From a virus: 27,055 bases of DNA. Shown piece by piece: positions 3,689-19,011 of the stretch; position 1 is the first letter of the stretch; the number at the start of each line of letters is the position of its first letter. Below the pieces are notes generated by a model, which made no database searches, had not been told where the DNA came from, and saw only the letters and a list, made by a program, of their open reading frames with translations. Location of the stretch: positions 1 through 27,055 of the IMG/VR virus record IMGVR_UViG_3300022072_000109. One strand, given 5' to 3'. Both the position numbers and the translations under genes were made by a program.

Positions 3689-3726
3689 GTAGTTGTAGTA
3701 ATTAGTACCAATAACAAACATAAATA

Positions 3727-3739
3727 CCCGTACTACGGG
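3727..3739. promoter_or_regulatory. Palindromic operator-like site upstream of the MoxR gene
   Basis: CCCGTACTACGGG, preceded by ATAAATA and followed by GATAACTT, lies 26 nt before ATG 3766. It is in the leader of the transcript predicted from 3660-3688 and probably controls the operon at 3766-7316. Confidence 0.65.
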
Positions 3740-3765
3740 ATAACTTAAATTCTTTGGAGAAGCAC

Positions 3766-4881
3766 ATGAGCACAATTACATTCGGTTCGACCCTGTCCCT
3801 TGATCAGTTCAAGACCGCTATTGCTACCGCAGGTGATCAGGTCACCATCATCGGCGAGGGAGAGCCGGGGATCGGTAAGTCGGCAGTTATGGGTTCACTG
3901 TCCCGTCTATTCCCTAACCACGAGCATGCGTATATCGATTGCACACTGCTGGACTTAGGTGACTTCGCACTGCCGTATACCGAGGTGGTGGAAGCAACTG
4001 GTCTCAATATGCGGGTGACCAAGTTTGCGCCGAACGCACGCTTTAAGTTTCAGTCAGGCAAGCCTGTCATCGTGATGCTGGATGAGATCGGCAAGGCAAT
4101 GAAGTCGGTCAAGAATGTGTTGTTGACGTTGATGCTGGAGCATCGCATCGGTGACATGCAGTTGCCAAAGGGTTCGATTGTATTCGGCACGACCAACCTT
4201 GCATCAGATGGTGTTGGCGATATGTTAGAGGCTCATGCCCGCAACCGTGTCTGTTTCGTCAAAGTGCGCAAGCCACACGCAGGCTTCAATGCAGATGGAT
4301 CAATCGATTCTGATTCGTGGGGTGCGTGGGCGTTGGAGAATGATATTGCGCCAGAGATCATTGCAGGTGTGCGTCAGTACCCGCAGTTCTTGGAGAGCTA
4401 TACCAACCCAGCACAGAAAGAAAACCCGTACATTTTTAATCCGTTGCGTGCAGGTAGCGCGGCGTTTGTTACACCACGTAGTTTAGAGAAGGCAAGTCAC
4501 ATCGCGAAGAAGCGTCACGTACTAGGCAATGAGATGACCCTGAGTCTGTTGGCCGGTACGATTGGCGAGTCAGCAGCACGTGATCTGGAGGCGTTCTTCA
4601 CAGTAGTAGATAAGCTGGCATCGTGGGAGGTAATCATCCGTGACCCAGAGAACACCAAGCTACCCGAGGATACGATTGCCAAATGCATTCAGGTGTTCAG
4701 TGCGATTACCCGTGTCGATAAAGATTCGTTTGATCAGTGGATGACGTACCTAGATCGTATGGACAAGGAATGGCAGGCACTGTTCGCTCGCAGTATCGTC
4801 AAGTCATCGACCAAGTCGAGCATCGCTGTAAAGAATAAACGGTTCGTTAAGTGGGCGACCGACAATCAGTGGTTGTTTTAA
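3766..4881 (+). CDS. MoxR-type AAA+ ATPase
   Basis: A 371-residue ATPase. ATG 3766 follows CTTTGGAGAAGCAC and is preferred to a TTG twelve bases upstream that lies within this RBS. The Walker A motif is GEPGIGKS (32-39) and Walker B is VIVMLDEI (101-108). A sensor-1 TTN lies at 142-144 and a candidate arginine finger in AHARNRV (156-162). This layout fits the MoxR/AAA_5 branch of AAA+ proteins, which act as chaperone-like remodelling machines with VWA-domain partners such as NorQ-NorD and CobS-CobT. The next gene encodes just such a partner, 10 bp away. The protein probably works in the cytoplasm. The target in a phage is unknown; remodelling of a host or virion metal-dependent protein is only inference. 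Confidence 0.85.
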   Translation: MSTITFGSTLSLDQFKTAIATAGDQVTIIGEGEPGIGKSAVMGSLSRLFPNHEHAYIDCTLLDLGDFALPYTEVVEATGLNMRVTKFAPNARFKFQSGKPVIVMLDEIGKAMKSVKNVLLTLMLEHRIGDMQLPKGSIVFGTTNLASDGVGDMLEAHARNRVCFVKVRKPHAGFNADGSIDSDSWGAWALENDIAPEIIAGVRQYPQFLESYTNPAQKENPYIFNPLRAGSAAFVTPRSLEKASHIAKKRHVLGNEMTLSLLAGTIGESAARDLEAFFTVVDKLASWEVIIRDPENTKLPEDTIAKCIQVFSAITRVDKDSFDQWMTYLDRMDKEWQALFARSIVKSSTKSSIAVKNKRFVKWATDNQWLF

Positions 4882-7793: not shown

Positions 7794-7815
7794 ATTTAAA
7801 TCTTTGGAGAAGAAC

Positions 7816-8106
7816 ATGGCACGTAAAACAACAGCAACAACAACGAAAATCATCGCGTACGTGGAGCGCAATCCGGATGCTAAACCAGCACAGATTGCTA
7901 AGGCGTTAAAGGTTCCCGTAGTACGGGTTTATTCAGTACGTTCGAAGCTGAACAAGCAAGCGGAACCCATACCTGTAGTTCTGGATGAAGTTACTAACCT
8001 CAAACCAGAAGAATGGAAGACCATCGCATACGCGATTACCAAAGGCCGTACCCGTGTTGAAGAACCTAAAGGCTTCTGGGCTAAGGTTGTTGGGTGGTTC
8101 AAATGA
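7816..8106 (+). CDS. Small helix-turn-helix protein with the operator palindrome in its gene
   Basis: 96 residues. ATG 7816 follows TCTTTGGAGAAGAAC; the TTG within this RBS is rejected as start. A basic threonine-rich N-terminus (ARKTTATTTK) precedes an HTH-like segment 'IIAYVERNPDAKPAQIAKAL' (about 12-31) with a probable recognition helix near VRVYSVRSKLNK. An aromatic basic tail, GFWAKVVGWFK, ends the protein. The codons for VPVVRV contain an exact CCCGTAGTACGGG site (7915-7927). This suggests the protein, or another regulator, may bind within its own gene. It could be a nucleoid-associated or transcription-control factor. DNA binding is inferred from fold-like pattern only. Confidence 0.6.
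   Translation: MARKTTATTTKIIAYVERNPDAKPAQIAKALKVPVVRVYSVRSKLNKQAEPIPVVLDEVTNLKPEEWKTIAYAITKGRTRVEEPKGFWAKVVGWFK
7915..7927. promoter_or_regulatory. Operator palindrome inside a coding sequence
   Basis: CCCGTAGTACGGG, identical to the copy at 127-139, lies within the HTH gene. Its flanks on the minus strand (AATAAA before, AACC after) resemble those of the intergenic copies on the plus strand, so the site is inverted relative to them. A random match to 12 fixed bases is expected about 0.0016 times in a window this size. Confidence 0.6.
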
Positions 8107-9660: not shown

Positions 9661-10111
9661 CAAAGAAGTAATGCAGATGGCGATGACTGCGCTGCAAGAA
9701 AATTGGAGAACAGATCAAGGTGATTTGGCAATCGAAGCACTACGCACAGCACTAGTGCAGCCTGAGTCAGCGGAATGTGACGGTGGAAAATGTGGCATCG
9801 GTGGGTATTGCAAGCAATGTCCAAAGACGCAACCTGATGTTCCCGAAAGCTGTTTCGGGGAGACGGAGCCAGTAGCGTGGGTTTCAGATAGAGAAGCACG
9901 AATGGTTTGGTGGAACGATAAGTTTACGCACATATCGCAAGCACCGCCGAGAAACACACCACTCTACACAGCGCCACCACAGCGCGAATGGGTAGGGCTG
10001 ACAGATGATGAATATGAATTAATGGCAGAGAAGCGCGTTACTAATTATTTTTTTAACACTTTAGATTATGCCCATGACATCGAAGCAAAGCTAAAGGAGA
10101 AGAACACATGA
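9653..10111 (+). CDS. Modular accessory protein with EPVAW, PLYTAPP, EWVGLT and KLKEKNT segments
   Basis: 152 residues. ATG 9653 follows GGGAGGACGC; an upstream in-frame ATG would lack an RBS. The N-terminal part is helical (ALQENWRTDQGDLAIEALRT) with a Cys-rich piece (CDGGKCGIGGYCKQC) that may bind a metal. It is followed by EPVAW, then PLYTAPP, then EWVGLTDDEYELMAEK, then DIEAKLKEKNT. The last segments recur in neighbouring genes in DNA as well as in protein. The last codons contain the RBS and overlap the ATG of the next gene. Function unknown. Confidence 0.65.
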   Translation: MTDKEVMQMAMTALQENWRTDQGDLAIEALRTALVQPESAECDGGKCGIGGYCKQCPKTQPDVPESCFGETEPVAWVSDREARMVWWNDKFTHISQAPPRNTPLYTAPPQREWVGLTDDEYELMAEKRVTNYFFNTLDYAHDIEAKLKEKNT

Positions 10112-10608
10112 CTAGAAACGATATAGTAAAGATAATGCATGAAGCGGGATTCAATTTATCCCTGCGTGGGCATCCAGATTTTCCGGAGAAAGATAACGAC
10201 GGCAATCTTTTGTTTTGGACATCTGGAGGAAACAAAGAGTTTCAAGCAATTTTTGCTCTTGCCTATGAAGCAGGTCGTAAATATGAAAATGAGGTGTGTG
10301 CGAAAGAAGTAGATAGATGGATTGGTTGCGACTTGTTGGCAGCAGCTATCAGAGCAAGACTAGCGCAGCCTGAACCGGAGCCGGTAGGGTGGATATATAG
10401 CCCTACTGGAACATTGTTTGATACTTGCCCACCGGACGCTGATGATGGTGAATTTTTGCCTCTCTACACCGCACCACCAAAGAAAGAATGGGTAGGGCTA
10501 ACGGATGAAGACATTGCAAAGAATATTTATGTAGAAGGTGAATTTATGTTGCCCTATTCTTTTGCAAGCTCAATTGAAGCAAAGCTAAAGGAGAAAAACA
10601 ATGGATGA
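10108..10608 (+). CDS. Modular accessory protein, 166 residues, with EPVGW/PLYTAPP/EWVGLT modules
   Basis: The N-terminal domain (MTRNDIVKIMHEAGFNLSLR through 'LLAAAIRARLAQPE') is unlike the preceding gene. The C-terminal half has the shared modules EPVGW, PLYTAPPKKEWVGLTDEDI and IEAKLKEKNNG. The gene thus looks like a fusion of a private N-terminal domain to a common tail. It overlaps both neighbours, the start by ATGA and the end by 8 bp. Confidence 0.65.
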   Translation: MTRNDIVKIMHEAGFNLSLRGHPDFPEKDNDGNLLFWTSGGNKEFQAIFALAYEAGRKYENEVCAKEVDRWIGCDLLAAAIRARLAQPEPEPVGWIYSPTGTLFDTCPPDADDGEFLPLYTAPPKKEWVGLTDEDIAKNIYVEGEFMLPYSFASSIEAKLKEKNNG

Positions 10609-10831
10609 ACCAGTGGCGTGGTTTTGTAAACTGCCTGATAACAAAATCTCAATCAAAATCGTCGGCAAACCAACGGAGGGCAACTGGGAGCCACTTTACA
10701 CCGCACCACCGCGCCGCGAATGGGTAGGGCTAACTGGTGAAGAACTGCAAGAGATTTATCAAGGCGGAGGAACTGTGCATTTTAAATTAGCAATGGCTGA
10801 AGCAAAGCTAAAGGAGAAGAACAATGGATGA
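10601..10831 (+). CDS. Short protein consisting only of the shared modules
   Basis: 76 residues: MDEPVAW at the very start, then a variable strand-rich piece, EPLYTAPPRREWVGLTGEEL, and AEAKLKEKNNG. It equals the C-terminal half of the previous gene without the private N-terminal domain. This shows the tail can exist as a free-standing gene. The start lies in the cassette GCAAAGCTAAAGGAG..AACAATG at 10576-10603. Confidence 0.65.
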   Translation: MDEPVAWFCKLPDNKISIKIVGKPTEGNWEPLYTAPPRREWVGLTGEELQEIYQGGGTVHFKLAMAEAKLKEKNNG

Positions 10832-11057
10832 GCCAGTAGCGTGGGAAGCATTAGTAGAATCTGTGCGCCAGATGCGTGATGTGCAGGGCATGGATGGTAA
10901 TTGGAACTACGACCCTTATATGCACGGGCTTTTTAATGGGATTGAGTTTTCTCTTTCGCTGATTGAAGTGCGAGAGCCAAAGTTTAGGGATGCACCAGAA
11001 AAGTGGTTGTGCGACGAGCCGAAAGCACGAATTTTTTCAGAGGATAAGAACAAATGA
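10824..11057 (+). CDS. Hypothetical phage protein starting MDEPVAW
   Basis: 77 residues. The start shares MDEPVAW, in near-identical DNA, with the previous gene. The remainder ('NYDPYMHGLFNGIEFSLSLI', 'EVREPKFRDAPEKWL') is the type of small phage protein with HGLFNGIELAL..E.REP..RDAP, function unknown. It lacks the EWVGLT and KLKEKNT parts. The start appears to have been exchanged with that of its neighbour. Confidence 0.65.
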   Translation: MDEPVAWEALVESVRQMRDVQGMDGNWNYDPYMHGLFNGIEFSLSLIEVREPKFRDAPEKWLCDEPKARIFSEDKNK

Positions 11058-11254
11058 CATGGCAAGTATGGACAAACATAATGCAGAAGAACGGAGCTTC
11101 GACTCATGTAGTGCCGTTAAACGACCTTCGAGAGCATGAGGAAGATACAACGTGTTGGTGTAATCCAAGAGTTGACGAGGAGCTGAACTTAGTTACGCAT
11201 CATAGTGCAGACAATAGAGAAGAATTTGAAACAGGGGAAAGGAAACCGACATGA
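11054..11254 (+). CDS. CWC-motif small protein, first paralogue
   Basis: 66 residues, ATGA overlap with the previous stop. The core 'VVPLNDLREHEEDTTCWCNP' followed by a VDEE/HH/S.D.REEFE region and end GERKPT recurs in the gene at 11522-11683. The CxC pair and conserved His could bind a metal. I recall such 'HDLREH...CWC.P' proteins in phages, function unknown. Its tail codons AAAGGAAACCGAC form the RBS for ATG 11251. Confidence 0.65.
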   Translation: MTWQVWTNIMQKNGASTHVVPLNDLREHEEDTTCWCNPRVDEELNLVTHHSADNREEFETGERKPT

Positions 11255-11508
11255 ACGAACAAATTAAACAACTTTGGGTGCAGGCTGCTGAAACAACTCA
11301 AGGTGATTCTTGGGAAGAGCAGACAAAGTTTATTGAACGGTTTGCCGAGTTGATTGTGCTGGAATGTATGCGTATGTGTGAGGTTACAGAGATGAGTTTT
11401 GTGACTCATAATTGTGATGTTGAGGCATCAGGTGCAATTACTGTTAGACAATTTATTGCTGAACATTTTGGAGTTGGGGATATACCCGCGCCATCGAAGC
11501 AAAGCTAA
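11251..11508 (+). CDS. Phage protein of the FAELIV..C...HFGV type with an out-of-frame tail
   Basis: 85 residues. The body 'FIERFAELIVLECMRMCEVT' and 'RQFIAEHFGV' is a common small phage protein type that normally ends shortly after HFGV(E). Here ten extra residues (GDIPAPSKQS) follow. They are the second reading frame of the repeated KLKEKNT cassette (11496-11525), which other genes read as IEAKLKEKNT. The cassette still supplies RBS and ATG for the next gene. This looks like a recombination event that kept the RBS but ignored the frame. Confidence 0.65.
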   Translation: MNEQIKQLWVQAAETTQGDSWEEQTKFIERFAELIVLECMRMCEVTEMSFVTHNCDVEASGAITVRQFIAEHFGVGDIPAPSKQS

Positions 11509-11521
11509 AGGAGAAGAACAC

Positions 11522-11683
11522 ATGACAATGCACACTTACCCGCTAAATGATTTGCGCGAACACGAAACTGATAAAGGTGCATTTTGCTGGTGTAGACCAG
11601 AGTACGACGAGGAGTATGACCTGTATGTACATAGAAGCATGGATGGACGCGAAGAGTATGAAGAAGGAAGGAAGCCTACATGA
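11522..11683 (+). CDS. CWC-motif small protein, second paralogue
   Basis: 53 residues (MTMHTYPLNDLREHETDKG). The start at 11522 is placed exactly behind the cassette RBS AAAGGAGAAGAACAC; an earlier in-frame start would overrun the upstream gene. It shares LNDLREHE, CWC.P, YDEE, REEYE and GRKPT with the gene at 11054. It lacks the first 13 or so residues of that copy. Coupled to the next gene by ATGA. Confidence 0.65.
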   Translation: MTMHTYPLNDLREHETDKGAFCWCRPEYDEEYDLYVHRSMDGREEYEEGRKPT

Positions 11684-11946
11684 GCGACCCAGAAATGACT
11701 ACGTTTGGTATGTACCCGAACTGGGGTATCGAATACTGTAAAGCATACGCCGAGCAACTCAGAGATAAGACAAGGGCAAACCGAGCAGTACACGCAGCAG
11801 AGTGCATTGAGTATCTTTTAAGTTTAGTTCAGAAAGAATGGGTAGGGCTGACTCATGAAGAACACATGGAAATTATGACAGGAACGATGACAACATCAAG
11901 CCGAATGGCGGCAGTCGAAGCAAAGCTAAAGGAGAAGAACACATGA
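11680..11946 (+). CDS. Modular protein with EWVGLT and EAKLKEKNT tail
   Basis: 88 residues. The private N-terminal domain (MSDPEMTTFGMYPNWGIEYC through 'AAECIEYLLSLVQ') is helical and joins directly to KEWVGLTHEEHMEIM and VEAKLKEKNT, without EPVAW or PLYTAPP. A different domain order from its neighbours again shows mosaic assembly. Its end overlaps the next ATG. Confidence 0.6.
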   Translation: MSDPEMTTFGMYPNWGIEYCKAYAEQLRDKTRANRAVHAAECIEYLLSLVQKEWVGLTHEEHMEIMTGTMTTSSRMAAVEAKLKEKNT

Positions 11947-12134
11947 TCGACGCAAGAAAATTACAGTACTACACGATGGCGCATAGGCTACAGGGTTACG
12001 CTGAGGGGTTGGATGAAGATCGATACGAAGCACTGTCGGACATGTTGATGAGAGCCGCGAAGATGTTGGAAGAAACATGGGAAGAGTACCACTCGACCCT
12101 GCCAAAAGTAAACAGACTGGAGAAGAACACATGA
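11943..12134 (+). CDS. Small helical protein with shortened cassette tail
   Basis: 63 residues, rich in helix-forming residues ('RLQGYAEGLDEDRYEALSDM', 'MRAAKMLEETWEEY'). The end is NRLEKNT, encoded by DNA in which only the last 16 bp of the cassette (GGAGAAGAACACATGA, 12119-12134) are kept. This is the shortest cassette form and still carries the RBS and next start. Confidence 0.6.
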   Translation: MIDARKLQYYTMAHRLQGYAEGLDEDRYEALSDMLMRAAKMLEETWEEYHSTLPKVNRLEKNT

Positions 12135-12340
12135 CTGGCGATGATTTAGAACGTGCGTTTTATCGTGATTGGGACGCAGGCAAAGTGCGGCGTGTGTCTG
12201 ATGGAAAAAGAATGGTTCCAGAGCGTGAATGGGTAGGGCTGACGAAGGAGGAAGCTAGAGAACTTTGTGTGGCTAACGTACCGTATGTTGTAGACATGGT
12301 GGCTGCATTGGAGGCCAAGCTAAAGGAGAAGAACACATGA
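12131..12340 (+). CDS. Modular protein with EWVGLT and KLKEKNT tail
   Basis: 69 residues: MTGDDLERAFYRDWDAGKVR, then REWVGLTKEEARELC, then AALEAKLKEKNT. ATG 12131 is set by the shortened cassette RBS. The cassette at its own end (12311-12340) has GAGGCC in place of GAAGCA. No function is known. Confidence 0.6.
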   Translation: MTGDDLERAFYRDWDAGKVRRVSDGKRMVPEREWVGLTKEEARELCVANVPYVVDMVAALEAKLKEKNT

Positions 12341-13033: not shown

Positions 13034-13242
13034 ACGAAGAAGAGCAATGGATTGAAACGAACAACGCAACGTGCGCAATAATAAGGCAGCTACACGATTC
13101 AATAGCGTTGGCCTCACTACCACCAAGACGCAGATGGATTGACCTGACGGATGAAGAGATGCGTGAAATAATTCGTGCGCATGATGTGTATTTGGATATG
13201 TGCCGCGCTATCGAAGCAAAGCTAAAGGAGAAGAACACATGA
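13030..13242 (+). CDS. Modular protein with a diverged EWVGLT segment and KLKEKNT tail
   Basis: 70 residues. It carries RRRWIDLTDEEMREI in place of EWVGLTDEE, then CRAIEAKLKEKNT. This is the most diverged copy of the module, while the cassette at its end (13213-13242) is identical to others, which suggests the cassette spreads independently of the protein module. ATGA overlap with the previous stop. Confidence 0.6.
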   Translation: MNEEEQWIETNNATCAIIRQLHDSIALASLPPRRRWIDLTDEEMREIIRAHDVYLDMCRAIEAKLKEKNT

Positions 13243-18396: not shown

Positions 18397-18575
18397 GCTG
18401 TTGCTTCATGACCCTAGGTGCATTGGGTAAAAACTGTACCAGCTAGAGCATGGTTCTCCCTCAGAGCAGCATTGTCACTGTGTGATCTAGCCGAACAGCA
18501 CCCGTAAGGTGCTACTTAATTCTGGACTGTCTGTGCAAATTGCACTTTCAGTCTATTACTGCTTTGGAGAAGGCT
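18397..18575 (+). other. Non-coding gap with several hairpins, possible structured RNA or leader
   Basis: GCTAGA (near 18444) and TCTAGC (near 18486) could close a domain containing TCAC-TGT-GTGA. Then AGCACC-CGTAA-GGTGCT gives a perfect 6-bp hairpin (about 18496-18512) without a T run. GTGCAA-A-TTGCAC (18533-18545) is a 6-1-6 palindrome with the same geometry as the CCCGTANTACGGG sites. The RBS CTTTGGAGAAGGCT then precedes ATG 18576. I do not see a tRNA. It may be a leader or small RNA. Confidence 0.4.
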
Positions 18576-18791
18576 ATGACTGAGAAAGAATTTAAAGCCC
18601 TGCTGAAGATTGAGGGTAAGCGAATGCGGGTGGAAAAGTATTCAACCCGTTTTGGACTGGTATGGTACGCATGGGCAACAAACACAGACAGATACAAGCC
18701 CGAGGAGTTTATTGCGGCATGCACCATTGAGAATGCCCCTCCTACCAGAAAAGAGGCTGTGCAGATGTTGATAAAGGTTTGGTATGACTGA
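18576..18791 (+). CDS. Small paralogous protein (MTEKEF type), first copy
   Basis: 71 residues. ATG 18576 follows TTTGGAGAAGGCT; an upstream TTG is rejected as it lies before the RBS. It starts MTEKEFKALLKIEGKRMRVE, shares that N-terminus with the next gene (MTEQEFVALLAIEGKKLIV), and continues with an aromatic segment and an AAC-TIENAPPTRKEAVQML helix. It looks like a small alpha/beta domain that may bind a substrate or DNA. Unknown family. Confidence 0.6.
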   Translation: MTEKEFKALLKIEGKRMRVEKYSTRFGLVWYAWATNTDRYKPEEFIAACTIENAPPTRKEAVQMLIKVWYD

Positions 18792-19011
18792 ACAAGAATT
18801 TGTAGCGCTGCTGGCGATTGAGGGTAAGAAGTTAATTGTAGATCGAGAGATGTCACGCGGTAACTATAAGAATGGATATAAACCCGTGCCCTATTATTCC
18901 GTAGGCATCTTAGACCCGAACGATCCAAGCTTAGGGTTTTTCGGCAAGATGTATCGCAGTCGGAGCTACGCAATTAAAAAGGCTATTAAAAAATACTATG
19001 AAAATCGTTGA
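18784..19011 (+). CDS. Small paralogous protein (MTEQEF type), second copy
   Basis: 75 residues, overlapping the previous gene by 8 bp. After the shared N-terminus it is basic and aromatic (NYKNGYKPVPYYSVGI) and ends YAIKKAIKKYYENR. It starts the run into the helicase gene, which overlaps its end by 14 bp. The two copies arose by tandem duplication and diverged strongly. Confidence 0.6.
   Translation: MTEQEFVALLAIEGKKLIVDREMSRGNYKNGYKPVPYYSVGILDPNDPSLGFFGKMYRSRSYAIKKAIKKYYENR

Follow-up and report, generated by a model that had tools for sequence, protein, structure and literature searches.

The question raised by this locus is whether a short repeated sequence, which ends one gene and supplies the start of the next, has been joined to gene bodies without regard to reading frame. 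The window, a whole IMG/VR virus record of 27,055 bp, encodes a family A DNA polymerase, an SNF2-type helicase, a PD-(D/E)XK nuclease, and a DUF927 protein, as well as an AAA protein that adjoins a DUF2201 metallopeptidase/VWA-like protein. Between 10082 and 13242, a 30-nt snippet occurs in seven copies on the plus strand. Its 29-mer core, GAAGCAAAGCTAAAGGAGAAGAACACATG, is exact at 10082, 11496, 11917, and 13213, has two to three mismatches at 10799 and 12311, and has a seventh copy at 10576; the 29-mer was found in none of 100 dinucleotide shuffles. In six copies (10082–10111, 10576–10605, 10799–10828, 11917–11946, 12311–12340, and 13213–13242) the upstream gene is read in frame 0, ends in EAKLKEKN(T), and overlaps the start of the next gene, which begins with ATGGATGARCC at the copies at 10576 and 10799. 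At those two starts ATGGATGARCCAGTRGCGTGG (MDEPVAW) opens two otherwise unrelated genes (10601–10621 and 10824–10844), inside a 47-nt repeat of 94% identity. The copy at 11496–11525 differs. Here frame 1 holds the long open frame (TCG AAG CAA AGC TAA) and, as originally predicted, the gene at 11251–11508 (plus strand, 85 aa) ends in GDIPAPSKQS in place of the AIEAKLKEKNT encoded in frame 0; its C-terminal sequence before the stop codon is AEHFGVGDIPAPSKQS.

Because 184 of 216 distinct copies are in frame 0 and preceded by a WxGLT motif, the snippet is natively the C-terminus of proteins in a WxGLT domain family combined with a putative Shine-Dalgarno (SD) sequence and an overlapping ATGA start. 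The last codons of the WxGLT gene (IEAKLKEKN) contain the SD of the next gene, AAGGAG, and stop and start overlap in ACATGA. Across variants the snippet holds a TAA (CTA/TTA variants) in frame 1 and a TGA in frame 0, and therefore two of three possible joinings end no more than 16 nt from the next ATG. A joining in frame 2 fuses the two genes and is rare. The same proportion of copies bears on the proposal that the cassette works as DNA or RNA, which holds in part: the SD and start would act at the level of RNA and the ~30-nt identity at the level of DNA, but most copies encode protein as well, which makes the snippet more than a DNA or RNA element.

At the off-frame copy, the signals for the next gene are undamaged. 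The frame-1 stop TAA (11506–11508, in CTAAAGGAG) lies at the SD, 13 nt upstream of the ATG at 11522. The predicted SD, AAGGAG (11508–11513), is 8 nt before the ATG (11522–11524), and both are intact, as had been claimed. The snippet thereby supplies the start of a gene (MTMHTYPLNDLREHE..., 11522–11683, plus strand) that resembles the upstream partner of the off-frame gene, a PHROG 2864 gene of unknown function (11054–11254, plus strand; E = 6e-17). Outside the array, a similar start context, GGAGAAG(A/C)ACATG, precedes genes at 3756–3768 and 7806–7818.

Relatives of the gene 11251 body were collected from 52 IMG/VR loci. Those that lack the snippet end in HFGVE, HFGVEE, HFGVES, HFEIEE, or similar directly before the stop codon, confirming that bodies of this type normally stop soon after HFGV and that their ends lie at HFGVE(E) when no snippet is present. 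The off-frame joint itself is found in the same frame in 14 distinct alleles, that is, in the window and in 13 others, which come from several metagenomes and have the motif H(F/L)(G/E)VGDIP(A/E)P in common. They vary in a synonymous Gly codon (GGA, GGG, or GGT), in the A/E replacement, and in where they stop: five terminate directly after GDIP(A/E)P, at CCATAA or CCATAG, before the core. Because 14 alleles share the joint despite this variation, the off-frame event is old and inherited rather than fresh in the window genome. The original prediction of frame-blind recombination is thus upheld in that the off-frame joint is real and recurs on other bodies; as a trace of a fresh event it fails, because the tail is common to all 14 alleles. 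Despite the stops gained in the 5' half, the SD and start are nearly unchanged across off-frame alleles, and the coding part of the off-frame snippet seems to erode more quickly than the predicted SD. Locus L180 is an exception, with GGAT for the SD and no gene start directly downstream.

The same alleles bear on two explanations in which the frame would be only apparent. The window sequence is a single metagenome contig and the core is a 29-nt exact repeat, circumstances in which a base could be missing at about 11481–11490 or contigs could be chimeric at the repeat. An assembly or sequencing error is nevertheless very improbable, given the same frame in 14 distinct alleles, the recurrence of the same downstream joints in different metagenomes, and the position of the off-frame joint upstream of the repeated core; a single-base error, named beforehand as the refuting finding, is ruled out by the shared joint and frame. 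Programmed -1 frameshifting, by which the HFGV gene would also yield a KLKEKNT tail, gains something from the fact that, in several off-frame alleles, frame 0 is open for 8–11 codons before the snippet. Yet the short overlap contains no X XXY YYZ slippery heptamer, and the five alleles that stop at GDIP(A/E)P never reach the core. Stable RNA folds were not found at the snippet (z-scores of -0.33, 1.49, -0.49, and -0.94), and folding near it is no better than in shuffles (z = -0.33). We regard frameshifting as extremely improbable.

The joint can be placed to within a few bases. Native bodies without the snippet end in GTTGAAGAATGA, and chimeric alleles read GTTGGAGA^TATACCCGAGCC at the joint, where the caret marks the junction. 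In the window, the putative joint lies at about 11480/11481 (plus strand), between a native body ending in GTTGGGGA and TATACCCG..., which derives from a WxGLT-type gene's 3' end. A scan for donors with GATATACCCG recovered chimeric alleles only. A relaxed scan with TATACNCGNGCNATHGARGCNAAR found one in-frame WxGLT-type gene, at locus L190 (EWQGLTDEE...DTFDLDGYTRAIEAKLKEKNA before the stop), which has 20 nt (TATACCCGAGCCATCGAAGC) in common with the off-frame tail and reads them in frame 0 as YTRAIEA. The placement of the joint follows from these 20 nt; the L190 gene is donor-like, not a proven donor.

Joining to the snippet recurs on other bodies. Among the copies outside the 184 of 216 are unrelated bodies that differ in frame, some reading the snippet in frame 0, some in frame 1, and one in frame 2. 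An HFGV-type body at L059 ends in FGLKEKNT in frame 0, and at L069 the snippet is in frame 2 and fused to a next gene that itself ends in IEAKLKEKNT. Besides the HFGV-type, two more body families carry the snippet in two frames each. Members of the MIDARKLQYYTM family natively end in LPPDQRVGS or similar without the snippet. The window member (11943–12134) ends in RLEKNT in frame 0, by way of a partial snippet, CTGGAGAAGAACACATGA (12117–12134, plus strand); L191 ends in LPSKPN in frame 1; and L154 keeps a native-type RIGS stop, with AAGCTAA common to the gene end and the snippet (frame 1). In the KVGDASKGVVFKDY family, which has many native ends without the snippet, the snippet is in frame 0 in L062, L214, and L277, in frame 0 through a different joint in L258, and in frame 1 in L102. 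A scan by DNA pattern alone, with the frame list curated to remove artefacts of the raw counts (contig edges and alleles that stop before the snippet), gave about six foreign bodies in frame 0, three in frame 1, and one in frame 2, a sample too small to prove equal chances for the three frames, yet not one frame only. Five loci (L138, L149, L155, L252, and L255) count as foreign solely because the domain motif is missing, and the loci retrieved contained no native ends for their bodies. There are few independent off-frame joints, about six in frame 1 and one in frame 2, and this counts against the explanation that we favor.

Sequences on either side of the snippet have also been exchanged. At least nine different genes follow the off-frame gene in 18 sequences. 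Four pairs of loci (L011/L012, L014/L015, L015/L017, and L042/L043) are 99–100% identical over the 300 nt up to the snippet, and directly past the snippet end their identity falls to 42–46%, the level of a shuffled baseline (44%). Common blocks of 654 nt with no mismatches (L015/L017), 659 nt with no mismatches (L015/L016), and 458 nt with three mismatches (L011/L012) have both edges in the snippet and unrelated sequence outside, on different contigs. All relatives are metagenome contigs and could be chimeric at 30-nt repeats; single downstream joints do recur across metagenomes, in L013/L016/L020, L015/L018, and L043/L044/L045. Block edges also fall within the body, at FAELIV, and where the PHROG 2864 gene ends, at GGAAGCCGACATGA, and therefore the snippet is not the sole joint. 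In L013/L016 and L008/L019, N-terminal halves of HFGV-type genes diverge abruptly at FAELIV, as if swapped in frame. The GGAAGCCGACATGA-type ends of PHROG 2864 genes (11240–11254 and 11670–11683) may form a second SD/start joint, as at the right edge of the L013/L016 block. No recombinase was identified in the analysis.

Codon use separates the SD from the peptide that overlaps it. Copies for this comparison were found through the peptide EAKLKEK with a start 5–13 nt downstream, a set that is biased to frame 0 and was used for codon constraint alone. AAG was used at the fixed K codon of AAGGAG in 95 of 99 copies, versus 53 of 152 K codons elsewhere in the same proteins (Fisher's exact P = 2e-28), and GAG at the fixed E codon in 86 of 99 versus 155 of 367 (P = 1e-16). 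Codon use at the K two codons upstream of the SD was at background (P = 0.69). Codons of the predicted SD are thus constrained beyond the protein sequence. The K and N codons after the SD are skewed too, as is the Leu codon of the tail, toward CTA/CTC, and part of the DNA conservation therefore reflects common descent. Could descent be all there is, with the snippet merely a conserved WxGLT C-terminus and the off-frame copy a meaningless, rare accident? The predominance of in-frame copies with the domain is what this explanation expects, and the Leu skew suggests few ancestral lineages. We nonetheless consider it unlikely, because the snippet is present on several unrelated bodies and its frame differs among them, the SD codons are constrained while a neighboring Lys codon is free, block edges coincide with the snippet, and off-frame alleles gain stops in the 5' half (CCATAA, CCATAG) but keep the SD and start.

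Instead, we suggest that the snippet is probably both a recombination joint and a predicted translation-start adaptor within a phage array of small accessory genes. Identity between copies would let segments swap, through recombination of a homologous or annealing type. Now and then, a body from a different gene family would have become attached to the snippet where homology was slight or absent, in differing frames, as is seen in three body families. Selection may have let off-frame joints survive because two of three frames stop within reach of the next ATG and the SD and ATG are kept; the anatomy of the snippet is itself observed. Gene 11251 would go back to one event of this kind, in which an HFGV-type gene was joined in frame 1 to the 3' end of a WxGLT gene, and the product would later have been passed on and reshuffled. 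Against this reading, most copies are in-frame C-termini of a single domain family, so that descent accounts for most of the repetition. A bolder reading is possible, although we hold it only tentatively: the snippet, with stops in two of three frames, an SD, and a start within 30 nt, would be a selected, frame-tolerant adaptor that keeps the next gene translated regardless of which gene end is attached, and that makes the array an open acceptor of new small genes across many phages. Mosaic maps are the usual basis for inferring how phages acquire and exchange small accessory genes without making their operons untranslatable. In this array, the joint can be seen at almost base resolution, and it recurs in several gene families and reading frames. 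It is directly testable because its parts are predicted to differ in importance, with SD and start needed and the C-terminal peptide dispensable.

Database searches gave the array little context. Neither the HFGV nor the WxGLT proteins could be usefully named from Pfam or PHROGs, and neither the DNA stretch, the gene 11251 protein, nor a whole WxGLT protein had an informative relative in the phage collection. A WxGLT-domain consensus had five weak matches there, of which four are uncultured Manatee Spring phages. In bacterial genome contigs, four of five matches to the domain are betaproteobacterial MAGs, a weak hint at a betaproteobacterial host. Elsewhere in the window, palindromic ACCCGTACTACGGGAA repeats, possibly a phage regulatory site, are confined to the left part (113–142, 596–625, 669–698, 829–858, 1738–1767, 3713–3742, and, in reverse, 7913–7930), and a gene start is duplicated at 18575–18620 and 18783–18828 (MTEKEFKALLKIEGK and MTEQEFVALLAIEGK).

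Several known systems resemble the array in part. Integron cassettes are small genes exchanged as units and bounded by a repeated sequence, the structured attC site. Small genes are likewise exchanged between repeats in the array, but the snippet repeats are coding ends with an SD and start, and no integrase was found among the ten proteins scanned in the window, which is a fragment. PeSL cassettes of T4-type phages (Arbiol 2010; Comeau 2014), as cited in PMC4503421, carry an early promoter and a stem-loop in a repeated intergenic module said to mediate shuffling. Compared with that account, the snippet is also a short repeated module between swapped genes, but it lacks a stable structure and intergenic space, and what it offers for regulation is an SD with a start codon. 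The SAS repeats of cluster K mycobacteriophages lie just upstream of the starts of unrelated non-structural genes and contain AGGAG; they are 13-bp copies of GGGATAGGAGCCC, 3–7 bp before the start, almost always in the same orientation, and most of their genes have an intergenic space above 50 bp; half are accompanied by 17-bp inverted repeats (PMC3203893). Like SAS, the snippet overlaps the SD of unrelated downstream genes. Unlike SAS, it does not match GGGATAGGAGCCC, with AGGAG the sole common part, and it sits inside the upstream coding sequence, with overlapping stop and start.

Lambdoid phages are closest in kind. Short sequences common to module borders have been proposed to serve homologous recombination of mosaic modules in these phages, as cited in PMC3029335. 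The snippet, too, is a short stretch of homology at gene boundaries, and the genes next to it vary among relatives. It departs from lambdoid boundary sequences in that it combines the 3' coding end of a single domain family with an SD and start, and in that one array holds seven copies, not all read in the same frame; the gene content of the window (family A polymerase, SNF2 helicase, DUF927, and PD-(D/E)XK) is not lambdoid-looking, judged by content alone. A literature search on this snippet and on phage joints that ignore reading frame returned nothing closer than the systems compared here. The array joint is, on our best reading, a variant of known phage boundary-sequence mosaicism, and the variant itself is new.
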